DNA from: Cafeteria roenbergensis
Taxonomy: Eukaryota > Sar > Bigyra > Bicosoecida > Cafeteriaceae
Direction: 5' to 3'
DNA: 43,160 nt
NCBI GenBank assembly: GCA_008330645.1
Contig: CM017891.1
Coordinates: 1-43,160, forward strand
Shown here in pieces: positions 17,149-33,945 of the stretch. The position numbers and the translations under genes are program-made. The first letter of the stretch is position 1. Every line of letters starts with the position of its first letter. The notes beneath the pieces were generated by a model. It had not been told where the DNA came from. It searched no databases and saw nothing but the letters and a program-made list of their open reading frames with translations.

Positions 17149-19290
17149 ATGGGAATCAAAGGACAAAAAGTTAACCCCGTAGGATGACGTGTAGGTTTCT
17201 ATAGAAAATGAAAAACTTTATGATATGAAGAAAGTTGAAATTATGGTTTAATGTTAAATAAAACATTACGTATTAATGAATTAATGCAAAGTTTTTTATT
17301 ATATAAGCGTTTACCCGCTTTAAATTGTAATATAATGGTTGCAAATCAAGGGACAGAAAAATTTATTATTCTAGTTTATTTTTATAATTTACGAGAAGAA
17401 GAAACATCTCAAGTAAAAAAACGTCGTAAACGATTAAAAGGAGCTTCTCGTTTTCAATCTGTTCGTATTTTATGAGATTTTGAAAAAAAATATACTCGTA
17501 TAAAAAAACAAAAACGTTTAAAAATTTTTTCTGCATTAAATTCTGCAAAAAATGAAATTTTATTTAATAAAAATTTATTAAAAGATGAAAAAGTAGTTGC
17601 AAAAAGAGTTACTTATAAAGCATTATATTTTCGTACTTTTTCTAGAAGAAAATTACGTCCATTAAAAAAATATACTATTTTATCTAATACTTTTTTAAAA
17701 GATTCATCAAAAATGTTACATCAATTTTTTTTTGAAAAAAAAAAAGAACAATTATTTTTTTTTGAAAATTATTTTTTATATTTTTTTCAAAAAAAAATAA
17801 ATAGTTTTGATACTTCAATGATTACTTATTTAAAAAATTATTGATTATTATTTTTAGAATCTCCTCTATTAGCTTCTTTTTTAGCTTTAAAACATGATGA
17901 AGAATTTATTCCTGATTTTCAGCGAGCAAATACTTTAAATGAATATGATATGACATTATTTTTTTATAATAGTTTATCAATAAGTCAAGGATTAAATATG
18001 GCAGCGTTAATGAAAATTAAACAACAAAAAGAAAATATTAAAGTACTTCCAGTATTTAATGTACAAAACGTTTTACCAAAAAAAAAATTAACTTTAAAAG
18101 CTAATTATTTTCTTAAACGTTTAACAGATTTAAGTTTAATTTTACAAAAAAAGAAAGCAAAAAAAACTGCAGCAGAAATTGCTGAGGAAAATAATAAAAA
18201 AAATTGACGTTTACGTCGTGAATTAAGTTTACATCAAAAATTGATAGGGATTCGTGAATTAGCCATTCAGCGTAAATTTGTACGTTTAAAAATGCTTCCG
18301 TATAAGCAAGTATGAATGACACACTTTAATCCTGTAGTTTTTAAATTTAATAGGTTATCATTGCCTACTTTAGCAGATGCTCATTTTAGATCAAAAATTT
18401 TACGTTTATATTTAGAAAAAATTAGTTATCATATTTATTATTCTTTTCCTTATATTACTTTAGAAGGTATTAGAAAATCTATAGAACTTTCAAAAAAACG
18501 TCGCGCTGAAGCAAAAAAGAAAAAAAAAGAAGATCTTCCATTAAAAAATGTTATTTTACAAAATTTTGGTAAAGATTTACATAATAAAATTCATTTAAGT
18601 AATAAAAAATGATTTTTTTCTTTACAGCATTTACATAATTCTTTACAATTTATTTTACAATCTAAAGTGGATATTTTTTTTATTAATACTCATAGTTTAT
18701 TAAGATATAAAACAAGATTAATCCCTTTAGATGTTAAAGGTTCTATTCGTAAATTAGGGGCTGAGTATTTATGACGCCATACTAAATTACAAAAAATTAA
18801 TACAAATCGTCAATATCAAAAAGTCTTAAAAAATCCTTTTTTAATTGAACGTAGAGGAAAACGCAAAGGACCTTTTTTACGTGATTTTGTTTTATTAATT
18901 CTTATTGCTTTACTTACCCGAAATTTTAAAGTTTTATTAAAATTTATTAATTATCAAACTAAAAATATGTCTAAAACTAAAAGACAAATTCCTTTTATAC
19001 GCTTTTTAATGCGTTTAATAACAAATTTAGCCGGAAGTGTAGTTCGTGTTAAAGGACTTAGAATTCAATTTAAAGGGCGTTTTGATCGTTGAAATAGAAC
19101 AAAATCATTAGTTTTTACTAGTGGAAATATTCCTTTACAGCGTAAAGATGCTGATATAGAATATGGATCATCTCATGGTCTTGTAAAAAAAGGAGTTTAT
19201 GGTATTCGACTTTGAGTTTGATACGGTCGTTATTATCATAAATCTTATAAAAATTTATTTATAAGTTATTGATATTTTAAACGTAACTAA
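17149..19290 (+). CDS. rps3: Ribosomal protein S3, greatly enlarged
   Basis: 713 residues against about 210-240 in bacteria. The N-terminus MGIKGQKVNPVGWRVG is the canonical S3 start. The C-terminal domain is at about residues 625-695: VRVKGLRIQFKGRFDRW, NIPLQRKDADIEYG and GVYGIRLWVWYG. Between them lie about 500 residues that are rich in Lys, Phe and Asn and contain Lys-rich blocks. Codon use is the same as in neighbours and the frame is unbroken, so it is translated rather than an intron or a decaying gene. It keeps its place between rps19 and rpl16. Confidence 0.93.
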
Positions 19291-19293
19291 ATT

Positions 19294-19716
19294 ATGAAAC
19301 ATTTTCCACCAAGAAAAAAATATAAAAAAAATTTTTCTAAACATTTAAGTTTTCGTAAAACAACACAAAATAATGGTTTAGTTTATGGAAATATTGGTTT
19401 ACAAGTTGCTGAATACGGAAAAATTTCTCATTTACGCTTGAACGCTTTAAAAAAAATTTTAACTTTTTCATTACAACGTAAAGGTAAAATTTGATTACGT
19501 GTGTATCCTATGATACCTAAAACAAAAAAGCCTCTTGAAGTACGTATGGGGAAAGGAAAAGGAAATCTTAATTATTGAGAAACTACTATTTTCCCAGGAG
19601 AAGTTTTATTTGAATTAACAACTGTTGATTCTAAAATTGCTATAAATGGACTAAAACAAGTAATGAAACGTTTAGGTCTTAAATCTCGTATTATATATAA
19701 ATATGATCAACTCTAA
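19294..19716 (+). CDS. rpl16: Ribosomal protein L16
   Basis: Large-subunit protein near the peptidyl-transferase centre and A-site tRNA, 140 residues, normal. Conserved are the basic N-terminus MKHFPPRKKYKKNF, the segment RVYPMIPKTKKPLEVRMGKGKG and the end GLKQVMKRLGLKSR. It starts 3 bases after rps3 and its last 14 bases overlap the start of the next reading frame (ATG 19703). Confidence 0.97.
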
Positions 19717-20599
19717 TATTATTTTAACAAAACACCAATATACTACATTATTACCACAAAAATCATTTTTTGTACAAAAATTATTAAATAAAAAAAAAAA
19801 TTCAATTATAAAATCTCAGTTAAATAAAGCTGAATTTATTTATTCAAAATCAAAAAAGGATAGATTTAAAGAAATTTCAAAATTAACTTCTGTTAAATCT
19901 TTAAAGCCTTCTATTACAAATAAATATTTTAAAATTAAATTATTTGGGTATAAAAGATTAGTAAAATCTTTTCTTATTAAAAAAGGAAAATCAAAAAAAT
20001 TTCAAACTTTTACTTATAAATCACATATGTTTTTAAATAAAAGGTATCCACAATTTAGATTAAAAACTCATATTGAAATTTTTTTTAATCGTTATGCTTT
20101 TCCTAAGATTGCAATTGAAAAATATCCTATTTTTCGTAAACGTCGTAGTAAGCGTCCTTACCATACTTATAAGTTATTAGGAACTCATGTAGAACAAAAA
20201 TATATTTTTAATTTTTTTAAAGATCATTTACGTCAAAAACTTCAACGTAATCTTGAAACAAAATTTGAGTCAATTTTTTTAACTTTAGCTTCGAAAAAAA
20301 TAGATTTAAATAGTGTTCAACGAAAAAAAAATAAAAATATGGTTGAAAAATGATATCAGTTCCATCAAGGTCGTTTTCGTTTTTTAGCTAAAGAAAAAAA
20401 AATAAAAAGACAAGAATTTTTGATTAATCATAAAGATAAATTTGATAACCCTCAAAAATTAGCAAAATTAATTGATCCTCAATTTATTCGAAGAACAAAA
20501 ATGACACGAAAAGAATTAAAAAGATTCCGTGAACTTCGTAAACTTGAACGTAATCGTAAATCTTATCCTGAAGTGATTAGTAAACTTTTTAAAATTTAA
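19703..20599 (+). CDS. Unassigned orf298, first part of a large basic reading frame
   Basis: 298 residues, very rich in Lys, Arg and Phe, resembling the expansion segments of rps3 and rps4 in this genome. I recognise no family. The ATG at 19703 overlaps rpl16 by 14 bases. The frame ends at TAA 20597, but coding-like sequence continues directly in the +1 frame (KHPWKRCYESSK...) without a start codon, so this is probably the N-terminal part of one protein with the next feature. The basic composition and position in a ribosomal cluster suggest a ribosomal protein; this is inference. Confidence 0.7.
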
Positions 20600-24072: not shown

Positions 24073-26470
24073 ATGTTGTGAACTTTTTTTTGAGAAATAG
24101 AAATGATCTGGTTATTAGTTTTATTTATTTGTTTTAGTTTTTTTGTTGAATTAAAAAGTTCAGCAATAAGCTCTTTATGTTTAATGTTTTTTTTTTGAGT
24201 GCTTTTAGTAACTCAATTATCTTTTTCTTTAAAAGATTTTTTAGTTTTAAGTCCTGGCGAAACTTTATTATTAGATTCTTCAATAATTAATTTTTTTTTT
24301 ACATTTTTATTTTTATTTGTTACTGTATATTTTTGACAAATTTTCTTTTCAAAAATGAATAAAAAAATGGAATTTGCAACTTTAATTTTTTTTATTTTAG
24401 TTTTAGGTTTACTTTTATTTAAAATGAATAATTTTTTAGAAATTTTTGTAGTAATAGAAGCTCTTAGCTTTATAGCTTATATTTTAGCAGGCTTTGAAAA
24501 AGATACAAAAATAGCATCGTCTGTAGGAATACAGTATTTAATTATTGGAAGTATTTCTTCAATTTTTTTAGCGTTATCTTTTATTTTAGTTTATAATCAA
24601 TTTAGTACTACTACTTTTTTAAATTTATTACTAATTAACCTAAATTTTTTTGAAGAACAATTTTTTTCAATAGATAGTGCCTCATTCTTTATTGAAAATA
24701 ACTTAATTTTTTTCAGTATTTTTAATTTAAAAAATATTTATACTTTTATTAAAAATTATTTAATTAAAAGTTTAGCTGTAGTTTCAAGTTTTTTTATAAT
24801 AAATTCTAATAGTATTAAATTAGATAATGAATTTAACTCATTTCCTAATGGAGGTAGCCCTTTTAGTGGCCAATTTAAAAATAATTTTGGTATTTCATTA
24901 GAAGACGCTACAATGATTATGGAAAAAAAAAGTGAACTTTTAGCACAAGAATATTCATCATTATTTTTTGGATGATGAAATTGAAAAACTTGAGTTCACG
25001 GGCAATTTCCAGAAAAAAATTCAGAAGCTTATAATATTTTTTGAAATCTTGTTAAAACAAAAATTAAAGATTTTGATTTTAAATTTTTTTCTGATCGTGA
25101 ATATTTTTTTACTGAAGTTAAAACTTCTTATCTTGAAATTAAAGTTACAGGAGACCTTTGAATGTATGATGGTTTAGATGCTAGTATGCAAGTAGAAAAA
25201 CAAGTAATTAATTTTTTTAATGATTGGTCGGCTAAGCCTGGTATGCTTGACTTAGGTTACAAAGTAAAACATCATTATTCATCAGGAAATCATCCATTCA
25301 CTTATAAATCTTCAGATGAGCTTGTAAATAATGTAGATTCTACCTCTTATATTCTTAATGGAAAAAATTTAGAGTCTAAAGAAGACCTTACTTCTACAGA
25401 AAAAACTAAATCTGAAAATAAAAAAAAAGATAGTGATGATGATGATGGTAGTAATTCTGGAGAGGGATCTTCTTCTAATGAAGAAACTCCATCAGCAGAA
25501 ACTGAAGTAGATACCACTTCAGTAGAAGATACTGTCAATAGTATTGTAGCTGAATTATTTGATTTTAATTGAGAAGTTTTATCAAATAGTTTAGTTTTAA
25601 ATTTAGAACAATGAAATTTTTCTATTTATGGGACCATTATTATTGTTTTAAGTTTTTTAATTGGTACTTTATTTTATAAAATTAAAGGAGCTCCTTTTCA
25701 TATTTGAGCCCCAACTATTTATACTAGAATGCCTACAGGATCTATGGTAGTATTAGTTACTATTTTTACTTTAATTTTTAGTTTATATTTTTTTCAATTA
25801 TTTTTTAAAATTTTTTTATTTATATTCTAATTTCTTTAGTCAATTTTTTATTTTAGGAGGAATTTTATCTTTAATTTTTGGATTTTTAGGAGCTTTTGAT
25901 CAAAAATTATTAAAAAAATTTTTTATTTATAGTTCTATAGGGCATGTAGCTTTCTTATTATTTTCATTTATTGCGCCTTATACTTTCCAAAGTGGAACTA
26001 GTTTACTTATGTATTTATTAATTTATTTAGTTTCAACTTTTTTATTATGGTTTTTAATTACACATAATACAAAAAAAGTTGAATTTTTATCTAATTTATT
26101 AGTTAATATTAAAGAAAATTCTTTATATTTTTTTTTATTTGTTATTATAGTTTTTTCTATGAGTGGTATTCCACCTTTAGCAGGATTTTTTATTAAATTT
26201 GATATACTTTCAATTCTTGCTTTATCTAATGAATTTTTAATTTTATTTACTACTTTATTAATAACTGTAGCAAGTTTTTATTATTATTTAAGATTAGTAA
26301 AAATTTCAAGTTTTGAGAATTTTAAATCATATTTACTCCAATTTTTAAAAATTGAAAATTTTTGAGTTTATATTCGTTTAGTATTTTTATTTGTATTCAT
26401 TATGTTTTTATTATTCTTTCCTATTATTTTTGAACAAAGTTTTTATTACGTACTTTCTTTTATTTTTTAA
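24073..26470 (+). CDS. nad2: NADH dehydrogenase subunit 2, with a large insertion and an apparent +1 frameshift
   Basis: Proton-pumping membrane subunit of complex I. Joined length is about 798 residues against about 490-500 usual. The N-terminal helices run to about residue 180. Residues about 185-510 are an insertion: hydrophilic, with the acidic Ser-rich stretch KKKDSDDDDGSNSGEGSSSN. ND2 then resumes with KIKGAPFHIWAPTIYTRMPTG. The first frame stops at TAA 25828, and ND2 continues in the +1 frame (GAFDQKLLKKFFIYSSIGHVAFLL across about 25888-25960) to TAA 26468. The shift lies within 25775-25830, with a T7 run at 25788-25794. It is either an extra base or +1 ribosomal shifting. Confidence 0.9.
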
Positions 26471-27901: not shown

Positions 27902-28675
27902 ATGAAACGCCTAACAGTTAACCAAGTAAAAGTAAAACAATTTACATATTTAAGAGCACAAATAGGTCATAGACGACGCATTTTAGATAAAACAATGAAT
28001 TCATATGTAGCTGGAAATCAACAAGATATTTCTATTTTAAATAGTATTTTTATACTATGGTCTTGAGAACGAGCTTCTCAAATATTAACACGTGTTTTTT
28101 TATTTAGGCAAAAATTTGTTTTTTTATCTACTAATAAATTTATACCAAATTCATGATTAAATAATTTTTTAGAATGACATTTTCAATTAAAAAATAATAG
28201 ATATCCTCATTTTTTAGGATATGTAGGTACTAATTGATATGGAGGTTTACTTTCTAATTGATCTAAATTATGAGCTTTTGTTTTATTAGTTTTTAAAGAT
28301 TTATTAAAAAAAAAACATGTATCTAAAACACGCCATTTATTAATGAAAAAATTAGCGGGTCGTATTTCTAAAGGAAATCAACCAGCTTTTCCTGATTTTT
28401 TATTTGCATTAACTGCAGATAAAGGTTTATTACATGAATCAGATCTTATACGTTTAGTTTCTGTAGGATTAGTAGATTCAGATAAAAATATGAAATCTGC
28501 AAGTATTTCACTTATAGGAAATGATGATTCATTTTTATTAATAGAATTTATGGTACGTTTAATAGAACAAAGCTTTTTGGTAAGTTCTCGTGAAGAACAT
28601 GAGCTTTTTTACCGTATTTTATTTAAAAAATTAAAAAAATTTATTATATTAAATTATGAGAAAAAATTGATATAA
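27902..28675 (+). CDS. rps2: Ribosomal protein S2
   Basis: 257 residues, normal. S2 features include an N-terminal IGHRRRILDKTMNSYVAG region (GHxxxxWxPxMxxYIYG-like), PAFPDFLFAL near residues 160-169 and LVSVGLVDSDKN, equivalent to PxxAIxDTNxDP. It begins 2 bases after rpl6; its last 20 bases overlap rps4 in another frame. Confidence 0.93.
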
Positions 28676-31600
28676 ACCTCATTTAAAAATAGTATATAAT
28701 GTACAAGATAAAACATTTGTTTCTCGTTTAAATCGTCTTCGTTTTTTTCATGATCGTCGCGTTTTAAAATTTTTGCGTTGACATAAAGGAGATAAAGGAC
28801 GCAAAGTAAGAGGAATTCATAGTTTAAAATGATATAAAATGCGTTATATTTTTGGACTTAAATTTTTTAATTTTTCGTCAAAAAAACGACGTAAAGTAAG
28901 ATTTTATCTTCAAAAAAATTTATACAAAGTTGAATTATATCGTAAAAAAGGGTTTTTAAGTTTTTATAGAAAACTTGATGACTCTAAAATACGCAATTGA
29001 TTTAAACATCAATATAATAAAAGTCGTCAATTTAAAATTATTAATTTTTTTAAAATGTTTGAAACTCGTCTAGATGTTATCAGTTTTAGAATGAAATTAA
29101 CTCCTACTATTTTTTTAGCTAATATGTTTATTAAAACTAGAGGTTTACAAATTAATTACGGTTTAAAAAAAGAACCTAGTTATCGTTTACAAATAGGAGA
29201 TTTGATTAGTTTTGAATCAGATACATTATGACATTTTTTTGCTTCACGTTTTCATAATCAATTATGAAAAAGGTGACATCGTTTAATTGATTTAAATAAA
29301 CAACGTAAAACAACTCGTTTATTAACTTTTCGTGAGTATAATAAAAAAAGTAGTTTACATATTCAAGAGGATCGTTCTTTAATTTTAAATCAAAATTTTA
29401 AAAATTTAGAAAATACTTGAACTTTCTTTATCAATCAAAAACAAACTCGAAATAATAATAATATTAAATTCAATAATTTTAATGATTTACAAGAAAATTT
29501 AATAATAGCTGATAAAAAAACATTAAATGAGTTTGCTATTAATCAGTTATTAGTTAATTTTTCATTAGAAAAGCGTTCTCGTTTATTAATGGATTATAAA
29601 TTATTATTAAAAGAATTTGCGTTTTCAAAACATAAGGTAAAATTAAAAAAAAAGAAATTTTTTTTTTTTTTAGTAAAACATTATATAAAAAATTTTTTTA
29701 ATACAGTTCAAAAAGAACAAGATAAATTAAAACATGTAATTTTTTTTTATAAAAATTACTATAAAAAAAATTTAAAAAAAAATCTTTTAAACAATATTTT
29801 AGGAAAAAATTTTACTTTATTTTTTTTTAAAGAAAAAAATACTTTAGGACTTTTAAAAATTTTTATATTAAATGCTTTAACAAAGTTTTCTTTAATTAAA
29901 AAAACATCATTTTCTTTTTTTTTGAAAAAAGAAAATTCAAAAAATGAACAAAAATTAAATTCGCGTATAAATTACTATACGTCTCAAATTCAAAATGTTA
30001 ATAATTTCTCTTCAAATCTTTTTTTTAAACGTAAAAATTTAAATTCATTATTAGAAAATTCTTTTATTAATTTAGAGAATTTTAAATGATTAGATACTTG
30101 AAGTCAACAAATTTTAGTTTTTTTTAATTTTAATTTTCAATTAAAAACATTATTACAGCGTATTTTTGTATCTTTTATTATAAGAAATGAAACTTATCGT
30201 TTCTTTTTTTTAAAATTTTGGTTAATTTATCGTTCATTTTTAACACGATTTGCTAAATTATTTTTACCTTTAAAAAAATTTTTTCAGTATTTAACACTTT
30301 TAAAACATATTTGTAAATCTACAAATGAAAAAATTTTATCTTCATCCTTTTATAAAGGATTATATTTACGTTTTTTTATACAAAAATTTGAATTAATTTC
30401 AAATTTTGTTTCTCTTATTGAAAATCAAAGTTTTAATTTTAATCAATTTTTTATTTTATTAAAAAATTTTTTAAATCCAATAATTTTTATGAATAATGTT
30501 AATTATTTAAAAAAACATTTTTTATTAACACGTCTTCCTTTTGAAACATTTACTGAAAAATATAATGAAGATCTTCATTTAGTTTTTGAACATGTTATTG
30601 AAGAAAATTTTTTTGATATATTAGCAGATTGAGTTCTTTATACTAATAAACATAATATACATTTTACTATTTTTTGAAATCATTATTGTGATGAACAAAA
30701 AGTTGTTCTTATTGTTTATTTGAAAACTGCGTTAGAACTTAAATATGATTGAAAAGAACTTTTTTTTAAAGATCCATTAAAGATGGATTTAACACATCTT
30801 CATATTTTACAGCCATTTTGTAGAGGATTACATCAAGAATTTTATATGGAATCTACTTTTTTATTAAAAGATTGTTTTGCAATGGAACAGTATTCTTTAC
30901 TTCCTAAAATTAAATTTACTGATTTTTATTTAGATAATGATTTAGAAAATAAAATAATGACAAGTTTTTTAGTAGCACAACAGAATGCAGGTCTTAATGA
31001 AGCAGAAGAACCTCTAACAGAATCTGAAGAAGAAGATGAAGAAGAATTAAAGCAAAAAAAATTAGAAGAAAATAATCAATTAAATGAAGGAGAAAGTTTA
31101 CAAAATTCAGAAGACGAATATGTTGTTTTAAATACTTCAGAAGAAGAAAGATTACAACGAGCTTTTATTTATGAAGAAGAAGAAAAAGATCTGGGTGTTT
31201 TTGAACTTTCAGAAACTTCGGAAACAGAATATGAACATTCTTTTATTGAAAATGAACTTTTAAATACTTCAACTTATAATTGAAAAAAAAAACAACTTTT
31301 TAATATTAATCGAACGAAACTTATAAGTCTTGTTACAAAAAATTTAATTAAAAGTTCATTAATTGAACGTAAATTAGAAAAAAAATATATTGAAAATTTT
31401 GAAGTTTCATTATTTAGTAAAAATTTTAATTATATTTTAAATAATTCTAATGAAACTGCTTTAATTAAAAATTTTGATATTAAAAATAATTTAAAAATTT
31501 TTCTTAAAACTATTCCTTTTAATACTTCTTTTTTAGCGTATACAAATTCTATTAAAAAAAAAGATTTTAATGGAAATATAAATTTACGTTCAAAAACTTA

Positions 31601-33590
31601 TAAAAAGTTTATTTTAAAAGAACAAAAAATTTGAAAACGTTTTAGACGTTTAAAACGACGCCGTAAGTTTCAATTTTTACGTGGGCATAAAAGAAGACGT
31701 CGTTATACATTTAGTCGTTTATTAAAAAAAGTTAAATTTGTTAAAAATCAAAAAATACAAGCAAGAAAACAATTAGGCGTAAAAAAATTAACTAATTTTT
31801 TATTAAAACGTAATTTTATTCGTAATCTTGCGTCATTTAAATTAAATTCATGACGCCGTAAACGTGGAAAAAATTTTTTTAATTTAGTAAATTTTAATAA
31901 AAATATTCAAAAAAATTTATATTTACCTATCCGTCGAATTTATTTTAAAAAACGTTATTTAGTTTCAAAAAAAACAAAACGAAAAAAAAAATTTTTAGTT
32001 AGATCAATTAATTTTAAAACAAATTCTTTTTGACGTAATATTATTAAGTTAATATTATTAAATAATAATAAAAAACATATTAAATCTCAACTTACTAAAA
32101 ATGTATTTTTTATTAAACAAAGTTTTATTATACTTCGTGCTTTACAAAATTTAAAAAAAAAAAATTCTTCATTTAATTTTAAATTTCAACGAACTTTAAA
32201 TAAAAAGCGAACAAAAAAACGTTTATATTTTTTTTTATCTACTCCACGTTTTAGAAAACAAATTTTAAAACAATATCGTAAAGATAAAAAATTCATGAAA
32301 AGTCATAAAAGTTCTACAATAATTATGAATAAAAAAAAATTTTTTTCTCGTTGAAAATGAAAAACTCATTATAAACAACCTCGTAATTGAATTTATTTAA
32401 ATAATACTTTAAGAAATAGAAATAAAAAATTATTTTTTACTTCTAAAGTTAAACAAAATATGTTAGCGCAATTTAACAGTTTATCTAAAAATAAATCAAT
32501 TAAAGATAAAAAAAAAATTAAATTTTCTTCATTTTCTTTTTGACGTAAAAAAAAAAAAAAGAAAGCAAAAGCATGAGTTTCTAATAGAAAATCTAATAGA
32601 CGCTCAAGTAATTTGTATTTACGAACTGTTAAAAGACGTTTCCGTTTTCTTCCTACTCAATTTTCATTCTATAAATTTAATTTTTTTAAACGTAAAAAAA
32701 GTTATAAACGTTTTAGAGGAGTTAAACAATGATGACGCCGTACTATCCGTCCTAAAAAAAAAGAATATAGAGTAGCTTCATTAAAAAGATATCATCAAAA
32801 ATCTTTTAAAAATGTTGTTGCTTTTTCATTAGATACGGATACAAAGCAAACTAATTTAATAAATACTCTGTGAACTTCTCAACAAAATTTAGCGTTAAAA
32901 TTAAAATTTTTAAATAATTTAAAAATAGAAACTCAATTAGATTCTTCATTTTTATTATATCAGCAATTTTATAATTTACAAGCTTTTATTCCAAATTATG
33001 GTTGAAATTTTGATCAAAAAGTAAATGAGGTTCAAGAACTGGAAAACGAGAATTGATTTACTAACCAAGAAAATAATACAAGAAATGAAATTTTTTATAC
33101 AATGTATAAAAAAAATAAAGTATTAAAATCTTTTGATAAACTTTTATTAAATAAATCAGTAAAAATGAAACCTCGTCGTAAACATTCTTTAATGATGCGT
33201 TCAAATTTTTTTAAGTTAAAAAAAAAAGTAAATAATTTTAAAAATCTTCAAAAAAACTTATCGTTTAATATTACTGAAGATAAACTTCGTCGTTACAAAA
33301 AGTATATTTGATATCATCAAAAGTGAATGCGCCGTTCTTCTGTACGTAAACGTTATAAATTTAGAACTAAATTATTACAATTAAATAAAATACGTCGTTT
33401 AAAGAAAAAAAAATTTTTAAATATTAAAACAAAACCTTCATTATTTTTACCTCATTTTTTAGAGTACGACTTTGTGACTTTTAGAGGTGTTATGATTTCT
33501 TTTCCCAAAGTGGAAGCTTCTGTTTTCGGAGGAGCGTCTAATAGTTATTTTTATGGCTTAATCAATTATTATCAACGATTAGGACTTTAA
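28656..33590 (+). CDS. rps4: Ribosomal protein S4, giant form
   Basis: 1644 residues in one unbroken frame with UGA as Trp, against about 200 in bacteria. The S4 RNA-binding domain is at about residues 133-188 (FETRLDVISFRM, LANMFIKTRGLQINYG, RLQIGDLISF). The last 47 residues (about 1598-1644, HFLEYDFVTFRGVMISFPK to LINYYQRLGL) fit the conserved end of mitochondrial S4. About 1400 residues lie between. They comprise a Phe/Asn/Lys-rich part, an acidic Glu-rich tract (about 775-870, bases 30981-31270) and very basic Arg/Lys-rich tracts (about 985-1330). There is no sign of an intron. ATG 28656 overlaps rps2 by 20 bases. Confidence 0.88.
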
Positions 33591-33593
33591 TAA

Positions 33594-33945
<352 letters not shown>

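Follow-up and report, generated by a model that had tools for sequence, protein, structure and literature searches.

The window analysed here, the whole stretch of 43,160 nucleotides, is the 43 kb mitochondrial genome of Cafeteria roenbergensis. Within this mtDNA, rps4, the gene for the small-subunit protein uS4m, occupies a single open reading frame of giant size, as a sequence-only reading of this DNA had proposed. Its start lies 20 nt inside the end of the rps2 ORF, so that the two genes overlap. The genes at the locus and the parts of the rps4 product are as follows.

27902..28675, + strand: rps2, adjoining rps4 upstream (Pfam Ribosomal_S2, E 1.3e-15)
28656..33590, + strand: rps4 ORF (uS4m), 1,644 codons in table 4, ATG start
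28656..28919, + strand: N-terminal part ahead of the detectable S4 core, residues 1-88
28920..29216, + strand: uS4 core with the S4 RNA-binding motif, residues 89-187 (profiles, hhalign, phmmer)
29238..30065, + strand: insert, Lys/Asn/Leu/Phe-rich part, residues 195-470 (composition)
30066..30965, + strand: insert, more hydrophobic part, residues 471-770 (composition)
30966..31280, + strand: insert, acidic tract, residues 771-875 (29% Glu, pI 4.05)
31281..33440, + strand: insert, very basic part, residues 876-1595 (pI 11.6, net charge +184)
33441..33587, + strand: candidate uS4 C-terminus, residues 1596-1644 (LPHFLEYD...FP motif at about 1598-1619)

The frame is open under code 4 (TGA read as Trp) only. 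Its Trp codons comprise 29 TGA and 1 TGG, and the rest of the genome is alike in this respect (TGA:TGG of 81:3 in 18 training genes). The predicted product has a mass of 202 kDa and a pI of 10.4, and the gene is about eight times the length of bacterial S4.

The S4 domain that had been recognised in the first 190 residues is present. A custom profile built from 19 of 20 bacterial S4 sequences (L097 was left out) matched the core with 34 bits, at an E of 4e-12 when four targets were searched, and aligned rps4 residues 89-187 with bacterial S4 positions 46-143, while hhalign placed residues 91-188 on S4 positions 48-144 (E 1.5e-8, probability 95.5%). The bacterial counterpart of residues 1-88 is about 45 residues long. 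All 14 phmmer matches in the PDB at E <= 1 were S4 proteins, the best with an E of 0.00099. The Pfam S4 family matched residues 138-184 under its cut-off (E 0.0083), and an NCBIfam scan of the ORF returned nothing at E <= 1, the cut-off of the full-length model TIGR01017 not being reached. The NCBIfam miss is expected because the two S4 parts stand 1,400 residues apart; it lowers the case for uS4 membership of the ORF without excluding it. Yeast and plant uS4m also match the bacterial profile partially and with low scores.

Between the core and the C-terminus lies an insert of about 1,400 residues without a stop, although stops make up 9.8% of the codons in the other two frames of the + strand. 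Base composition puts the probability that 1,400 codons remain open at about 1e-54, and open runs in 1,000 second-order Markov copies reached 210 codons at most. Synonymous codon log-odds are positive in all six insert segments, and the true frame is the best of six in all eight segments of rps4, stops being dropped in the other five frames. The insert is in-frame coding sequence. These observations bear on the alternative that the insert is excised at the RNA level, by an intron-like or other process, so that a short S4 is made. The confinement of S4-like sequence to the two ends of rps4 agrees with such an excision, but the frame is never interrupted, every insert segment has the codon use of a gene, Rfam finds no group I or group II intron core in rps4 (a single miRNA-family row at E 0.58 is far below its gathering score), and no introns are reported for Cafileria mtDNA (PMC6723347). 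We therefore regard RNA excision as very improbable. Protein splicing, proposed earlier as another alternative, would require the insert to be an intein. The bracketed arrangement alone speaks for it, and the Pfam matches contain no intein splicing domain and no homing endonuclease, either in the whole ORF (E <= 1) or in six tiles (E <= 5), leaving this alternative scarcely credible.

The last 47 residues had been read as the usual S4 terminus. Their place agrees with this reading, and the score is weak: hhalign gave an E of 0.068 and a probability of 0.8%, and the C-terminus found no uS4 in the PDB at E <= 10. Against shuffled sequences the motif ranked 6 of 2,001 with the bacterial profile and 1 of 5,001 with the bacterial profile plus the plant tail. 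When the proteins of this genome were cut into 637 windows, the C-terminal windows of rps4 scored highest with the former profile, and they also led the 381 scored of 637 when the plant tail was added. With the plant tail alone, 91 of 5,000 shuffles equalled the score of the C-terminus, and an N-terminal stretch of rps4 outscored it (34 vs 33). The segment has a GC content of 32% compared with about 19% in the insert, and its synonymous log-odds are slightly negative (-0.107). The C-terminal S4 tail is thus a candidate, weakly shown, that stands in the right position and whose homology by itself is weak.

Another alternative is that the ORF is decaying and no longer a working uS4m, and that a nuclear or unrelated protein substitutes for it. 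Core matches under the Pfam cut-off and the lack of any in NCBIfam would fit such decay. However, the 1,644 codons contain no stop, and among the PF00163 and PF01479 matches in the 36.3 Mb nuclear assembly there is no mitochondrial uS4; the matches are RPS9-like, IMP3-like and, judged by eye, RsuA-like. The search was made exon by exon in an assembly that may be incomplete, with only the best candidates scored, and as a control it recovered a nuclear uS5 of bacterial/mitochondrial type. Decay therefore retains only a very slight chance, somewhat below that of RNA excision, and the rps4 ORF is, as far as the sequences searched can tell, the sole uS4m gene found in the cell, with no nuclear substitute detected.

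The composition of the insert changes along its length. Residues 471-770 have a net charge of +4, a pI of 8.7 and a GRAVY of 0.06, whereas the acidic tract that follows carries a net charge of -27. Both this Glu-rich tract, noted earlier at about residues 775-870, and the basic tracts noted alongside it were borne out. Single-sequence AlphaFold2 gave a poor model overall, with a mean pLDDT of 46 for residues 471-775 and 38 for residues 1-205, and with the first 60 residues of 471-770 helical at pLDDT 75-82. These predictions are uninformative because the S4 core, which served as an internal positive control, failed too.

The distinct composition of residues 471-770 as compared with the rest of rps4 could suggest that a separate gene was fused in frame into rps4 and that the insert has a non-ribosomal activity. 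A PF00521-like match (type IIA topoisomerase A subunit) at residues ~619-739 favours this alternative. The match is sub-threshold, with E values of 0.00087 in the first tile and 0.00022 in a trimmed tile, and with scores of 16.3-20.6 bits in four tiles, where the cut-off is 31 bits. None of ten control tiles (nine shuffled and one reversed) had a match below E 0.1, and a profile of nuclear and viral topo II ranked the same region as the top window of the genome's proteins. This profile contained five sequences, drawn from the genome's own topo II and from nine viral-contig loci, three of which were included (the others had no anchor). On the other side, PF00521 is absent from the whole-ORF Pfam scan at E <= 1, and with the five-sequence profile 7 shuffles out of 2,000 scored above the trimmed tile and 14 above the full tile, the shuffles being made from the 305-residue tile for the 167-residue comparison as well. 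A mixed topoisomerase profile scored 2,275 of 5,000 shuffles above the match, the profile labelled toweuk kept one of five eukaryotic or viral sequences and makes a weak sub-test, and bacterial gyrase/topo IV profiles (16 loci, of which 11 passed the first filter and 9 entered the profile) gave no support. The topoisomerase-like region has no match in NCBIfam, the two insert parts tested have none in the PDB, and the nuclear genome holds no copy of the insert. A topoisomerase domain in the insert is unproven and the match, weakly supported by the nuclear and viral profile and not by the bacterial one, is probably due to chance; gene fusion as a whole appears quite unlikely.

Searches of the viral contigs, the nuclear genome, the plasmids and the genome contigs gave no relative of the insert, and the other proteins of this genome include no paralogue (one chance-level row, E 0.99). 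In the viral contigs, no relatives of the N-terminal 195 residues of rps4, of atp1 or of nad7 were confirmed. Four cox1 loci are present there, of which three have only cox1 and cox2 in common with Cafeteria mtDNA and the fourth (L008, with eight tRNAs) only cox1, and none shows a sign of stramenopile mtDNA. The viral contigs also contain three rps12 loci that are 45-50% identical. Searching the genome contigs with P0001 confirmed no relative; among the best 80 of 594 cox1 matches there, the sources are proteobacteria plus one Chloroflexi MAG, with at most four mitochondrial-type genes per locus.

Extra sequence in uS4m is known from other mitochondria. Fungal uS4m, which is nuclear-encoded, also extends beyond the S4 core (yeast Nam9, 486 aa; PDB 6yw5 chain DD, 453 aa, which we take to be the Neurospora protein) and remains below one third of the length of Cafeteria rps4. 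In the 60 of 115 matches listed, no uS4m is longer than 486 aa. Plant uS4m, which is mitochondrion-encoded, resembles the Cafeteria protein in having a core, an insert and a P-x-x-[YF]LE motif (PDB 6xyw chain Bc; 9evs chain C, Brassica oleracea; 362 aa). Its profile match to the core stops at residue 158 and its tail motif is placed at around residue 315 of 362, so that the insertion point is common to both. The plant insert, of about 155 residues, has no detectable sequence likeness to that of Cafeteria, and the plant protein, unlike Cafeteria rps4, has an extra tail beyond the C-terminal motif. Part of plant uS4m contributes to the body protuberance, which is situated at the mRNA entrance (PMC12672651).

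Blastocystis and Proteromonas MRO rps4 are the nearest likeness, being the same gene, from Opalozoa, oversized and very AT-rich. According to their description, rps4 measures 2,769-3,219 bp in Blastocystis and 1,473 bp in Proteromonas, has a dN/dS of 0.199 in Blastocystis, and has no nuclear copy in the Blastocystis genomes that those authors searched; it lacks a start codon in several Blastocystis subtypes, unlike the ATG-initiated Cafeteria gene (PMC5203790). In Blastocystis ST1, rps4 cDNA amplification failed while nad7 worked, and the rps4 primers failed on genomic DNA too (PMC5203790). With 1,644 codons in mtDNA, far above 200 codons, Cafeteria rps4 belongs with these genes, is about 1.5 times as long as the longest Blastocystis rps4 (PMC5203790), and is the longest known to us among the long Opalozoan rps4 genes. 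Since shorter oversized genes are known in related protists, it is the extreme of a known trend and not a new kind. That homologues might carry the two ends as separate genes is disfavoured, as the long Blastocystis and Proteromonas genes were published as single reading frames (PMC5203790). The length of Cafeteria rps4 was not discussed in the sources covered by a non-exhaustive literature search, partly seen as extracts, and the main text of the Cafileria paper does not contain 'rps4' (PMC6723347).

The long single Opalozoan ORFs, though silent on the mature protein (PMC5203790), speak against a further alternative, in which one precursor is cut by mitochondrial proteases, with the acidic or basic tracts as cut regions, into S4 core, insert and small C-terminal pieces that remain together or act separately. 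The abrupt composition shifts at ~770 and ~875 would suit such processing, and Tetrahymena uS3m is functional when assembled from separately encoded pieces (PMC7326499). No positive sign of processing is seen in rps4, and we consider proteolytic maturation unlikely, if less so than gene fusion.

The genome contains a second enlarged small-subunit gene:

17149..19290, + strand: rps3, expanded too, 713 aa

Its product has the uS3 N-terminus at residues 5-50 and the C-terminal domain at about 608-698, with ~550 residues between them.

We infer that rps4 is the sole uS4m gene of the cell and an Opalozoan extreme, whose insert loops out from the S4 fold and probably adds mass near the mRNA entry (probability of about 0.6). 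The uS4 core and the short C-terminal tail appear to bracket the insert at a position where the bacterial S4 linker has ~15-20 residues. As the C-terminal end of bacterial S4 folds back to meet the core, the insert should exit and re-enter the fold as one large loop. The product would be a single mature chain, most likely built into the small subunit as a whole, with the S4 core docking on the small-subunit rRNA at its 5' domain. The long basic stretches, together with the helical and acidic middle, would spread across rRNA and neighbouring proteins. The insert would thus buttress the region near the mRNA entry, where the uS3m encoded in this mtDNA is expanded as well, and would take to an extreme the extension by which uS4m helps to form the body protuberance in plants.

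More tentatively, it is possible that the ~172 kDa insert permanently forms an arm of the mitoribosome which, with the expanded uS3m, makes a largely mtDNA-encoded platform around the mRNA entry for the capture of AT-rich mRNAs. Lineage-specific proteins are known to account for most of the mass that mitoribosomes have gained; if this arm exists, extra ribosome mass would instead lie inside one mtDNA-encoded core protein and not in many imported ones, and to our knowledge no universal ribosomal protein family would have a larger member. The expectation that the product ranks among the largest ribosomal proteins known is reasonable, as it has more codons (1,644) than ciliate (Tetrahymena) mS78 has modelled residues (1,509; PMC7326499) and is longer than the 486 aa uS4m mentioned above. 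That giant small-subunit protein likewise builds new mass, but mS78 is mitochondria-specific (PMC7326499) whereas Cafeteria rps4 is a universal ribosomal protein with an insert. Cafeteria rps4 allows drift, as tolerated low-complexity expansion in AT-rich mtDNA, to be tested against construction of a structural arm, and bears on the question of why Opalozoa have a long version of this gene in particular. Cafeteria is grown in culture (PMC6972860), which makes purification of its ribosomes feasible. The small-subunit rRNA gene of this genome fits the bacterial model end to end, and this full length argues against the insert replacing a lost rRNA domain.

Translation table 4, with TGA as tryptophan, leaves the rps4 frame (28656-33590, + strand) uninterrupted over 1,644 codons, which bears out the giant gene proposed in the sequence-only reading. 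The predicted protein is of 202 kDa with a pI of 10.4, and about 1,400 of its residues form an insert which takes the place of the approximately 15-20-residue linker of bacterial S4. The insert (approximately codons 195-1595) has 19% G+C and zero stops, while 9.8% of the codons are stops in the other two forward frames. From base composition alone, 1,400 codons would stay open by chance with a probability of about 1e-54, and the longest open run among 1,000 second-order Markov copies is 210 codons. A synonymous-codon score trained on 18 other genes of the window (4,991 codons) is above zero in 6/6 insert segments, with values per codon of 0.10 to 0.17, compared to 0.13 to 0.19 for rps3 and the orphan frames ORF298 and ORF683, and the true frame is top of the six in 8/8 rps4 segments when stops are dropped from the other five. 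Given the open frame, the chance estimates and the gene-like codon score, the insert is therefore coding sequence, neither intron nor spacer, and the stretch between the two ends is unbroken, as had been claimed. The final 49 codons score -0.107, yet this is the highest of the six frames. Their G+C is clearly higher (32%; 33441-33587, + strand) and their third positions are unlike the rest of the gene.

A uS4 core is clearly recognizable by profile comparison within the first 190 residues, where an S4 domain had been expected. Residues 89-187 align to positions 46-143 of a bacterial S4 profile (34 bits), and hhalign pairs residues 91-188 with bacterial S4 48-144 (E 1.5e-8, 95.5%). All 14 PDB sequences found by phmmer at E <= 1 are S4 (14/14, top E 0.00099), the second-ranked being the mitochondrial S4 of 6xyw, which we take to be from Arabidopsis. 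The Pfam S4 model matches under its cut-off, and the NCBIfam scan of the protein gave no match.

A bacterial C-terminal S4 profile, run over 637 segments cut from 33 of the window's proteins or ORFs, places those at the C-terminus of this protein highest. With the same profile the last 90 residues are sixth of 2,001 including shuffles, and with a plant mitochondrial tail added the C-terminus is first of 5,001. The hhalign probability of the tail is 0.8%, and uS4 is absent from its PDB matches at E <= 10. When the plant tail alone serves as reference, the score is equalled by 91/5,000 shuffles and slightly exceeded by a stretch near the N-terminus of this protein. Because the match sits at the protein end and spans the P-x-x-[YF]LE-D...P pattern of bacteria and plants, the tail is probably a genuine S4 C-terminus, albeit a weaker case than the core. 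The S4-type terminus suggested earlier is supported by position and profile rank but not by hhalign or the PDB.

The insert comprises four parts:
residues 195-470: Lys/Asn/Leu/Phe-rich
residues 471-770: more hydrophobic, small net charge
residues 771-875: acidic tract, net -27
residues 876-1595: long, basic, net +184

The last two correspond to the Glu-rich tract (about 775-870) and the basic tracts noticed earlier. No relatives of the insert were found in the other proteins of the window, the nuclear genome, plasmids or prokaryotic contigs, nor in viral contigs queried with the N-terminal part of the protein only. A PDB search with two insert parts gave no match. Within the insert, no Pfam family reaches its cut-off and no Rfam family its gathering score, with one miRNA-family row at E 0.58.

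At about residues 619-739 (30510-30872, + strand), Pfam scans of four tiles, segments of the protein run singly, match the A subunit of type IIA topoisomerases with scores under the cut-off (E 0.0045 to 0.00022). The match is absent from the list when the whole ORF is scanned against Pfam, and 0/10 shuffled or reversed control tiles gave a match below E 0.1. With a nuclear and viral topoisomerase II profile, 7/2,000 shuffles beat the tile trimmed around the match and 14 beat the full tile, which is weak support, and bacterial topoisomerase profiles give none. A relationship of this stretch to topoisomerase, suggested by profile similarity, is unproven. Nuclear contigs C16 and C70 carry two distinct genes (loci L126-L129) that match type IIA topoisomerases and, on inspection by eye, look eukaryotic.

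S4-family models were also run over the nuclear contigs of the assembly (36,303,456 bases, 167 contigs), which may be incomplete. They recovered an RPS9-like protein, the cytosolic uS4 (top PDB E 2e-62), an IMP3-like protein (top E 3.5e-44) and a third match which, by eye, is presumably an RsuA-type pseudouridine synthase; a mitochondrial uS4 was not found among the matches in this possibly incomplete assembly. A control search for uS5 in the same contigs yielded two copies, one of cytosolic appearance by eye and another that is matched in the PDB by bacterial S5 and by mitochondrial uS5.

Cafeteria burkhardae is the newer name of what was called C. roenbergensis, a bicosoecid within Opalozoa. 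Long rps4 genes are described in PMC5203790 for Blastocystis (2,769-3,219 bp) and Proteromonas (1,473 bp), both shorter than the 1,644 codons of Cafeteria. In the same account of Blastocystis, the dN/dS is 0.199, a nuclear copy was not found by the authors and they argue for a functional gene; the start codon is missing in some subtypes, and the transcript was not amplified with primers that failed on genomic DNA as well. PMC9656049 gives an rps4 Ka/Ks of 0.23 for Cepedea/Proteromonas, termed relaxed relative to other genes. Other mitochondrial genes also carry large in-frame inserts, one being of 380 residues in Euplotes cox1 (PMC2779199). The Cafeteria gene is the longest case we have met of a known Opalozoan trend, striking in size but of a kind already known.

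A second ribosomal protein gene of the window is greatly enlarged:
17149-19290, + strand: rps3 (uS3m), 713 codons

Its uS3 N-terminus (residues 5-50) and C-terminal domain (about 608-698) are separated by about 550 unmatched residues, while the remaining nameable ribosomal proteins, mostly identified by eye, have 100-257 aa. The small-subunit rRNA gene (1,662 nt) matches the bacterial model end to end; in approximately the first half of the model, one loop is 24 nt longer and one helix end about 20 nt shorter, which we take to be the tip of helix 16 and the end of helix 17, respectively. This argues against the insert being a substitute for a lost rRNA domain. In plants, as described in PMC12672651, the mRNA entry channel is formed mostly by uS3m, uS4m and uS5m, and part of uS4m, together with uS5m extensions, helps to build the body protuberance. 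The enlarged uS3m, these plant roles and the rRNA match lead us to favour a reading in which the insert would loop out as a structural arm on the small-subunit body near mRNA entry. The sequence-only reading, which had placed a major added mass there, is partly supported in its interpretation and confirmed in its observation.

The window is a complete mitochondrial genome, with large and small rRNA genes, 21 tRNA genes and respiratory and ribosomal protein genes, with TGA read as tryptophan. Gene names were mostly assigned by eye, except for rps2, rps3 and, weakly, rps10, which are Pfam-based. The order is rps8, rpl6, rps2, rps4, atp9 (rps8, rpl6 and atp9 named by eye), with a gap before atp9:
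33591-33717, + strand: rps4-atp9 gap, 127 nt

In the predicted fold of the gap, one stem encloses another, the inner one being CCUUGUG/CACGAGG. No Rfam family matches the gap at E <= 5, and its fold is not notably stabler than those of shuffles (z -0.77; 39/200 equally stable). Two further ORFs presumably make up nad2:
24073-25830, + strand: first nad2-like ORF
26009-26470, + strand: second nad2-like ORF

The first carries a long hydrophilic Asp/Ser/Glu-rich insert ahead of its final membrane stretch. Four orphan ORFs complete the list:
19703-20599, + strand: ORF298, 298 aa
20529-22580, + strand: ORF683, 683 aa
10919-11428, + strand: ORF169, 169 aa
11432-11968, + strand: ORF178, 178 aa

None has a Pfam family above cut-off; ORF298 and ORF683 overlap each other and are located between rpl16 and rps10. 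According to PMC6723347, the gene set of Cafeteria mtDNA equals that of Cafileria apart from rpl5, with four orphan ORF regions. ORF169, ORF178, ORF298 and ORF683 would fit this count, as expected if rps4 is already annotated under that name.
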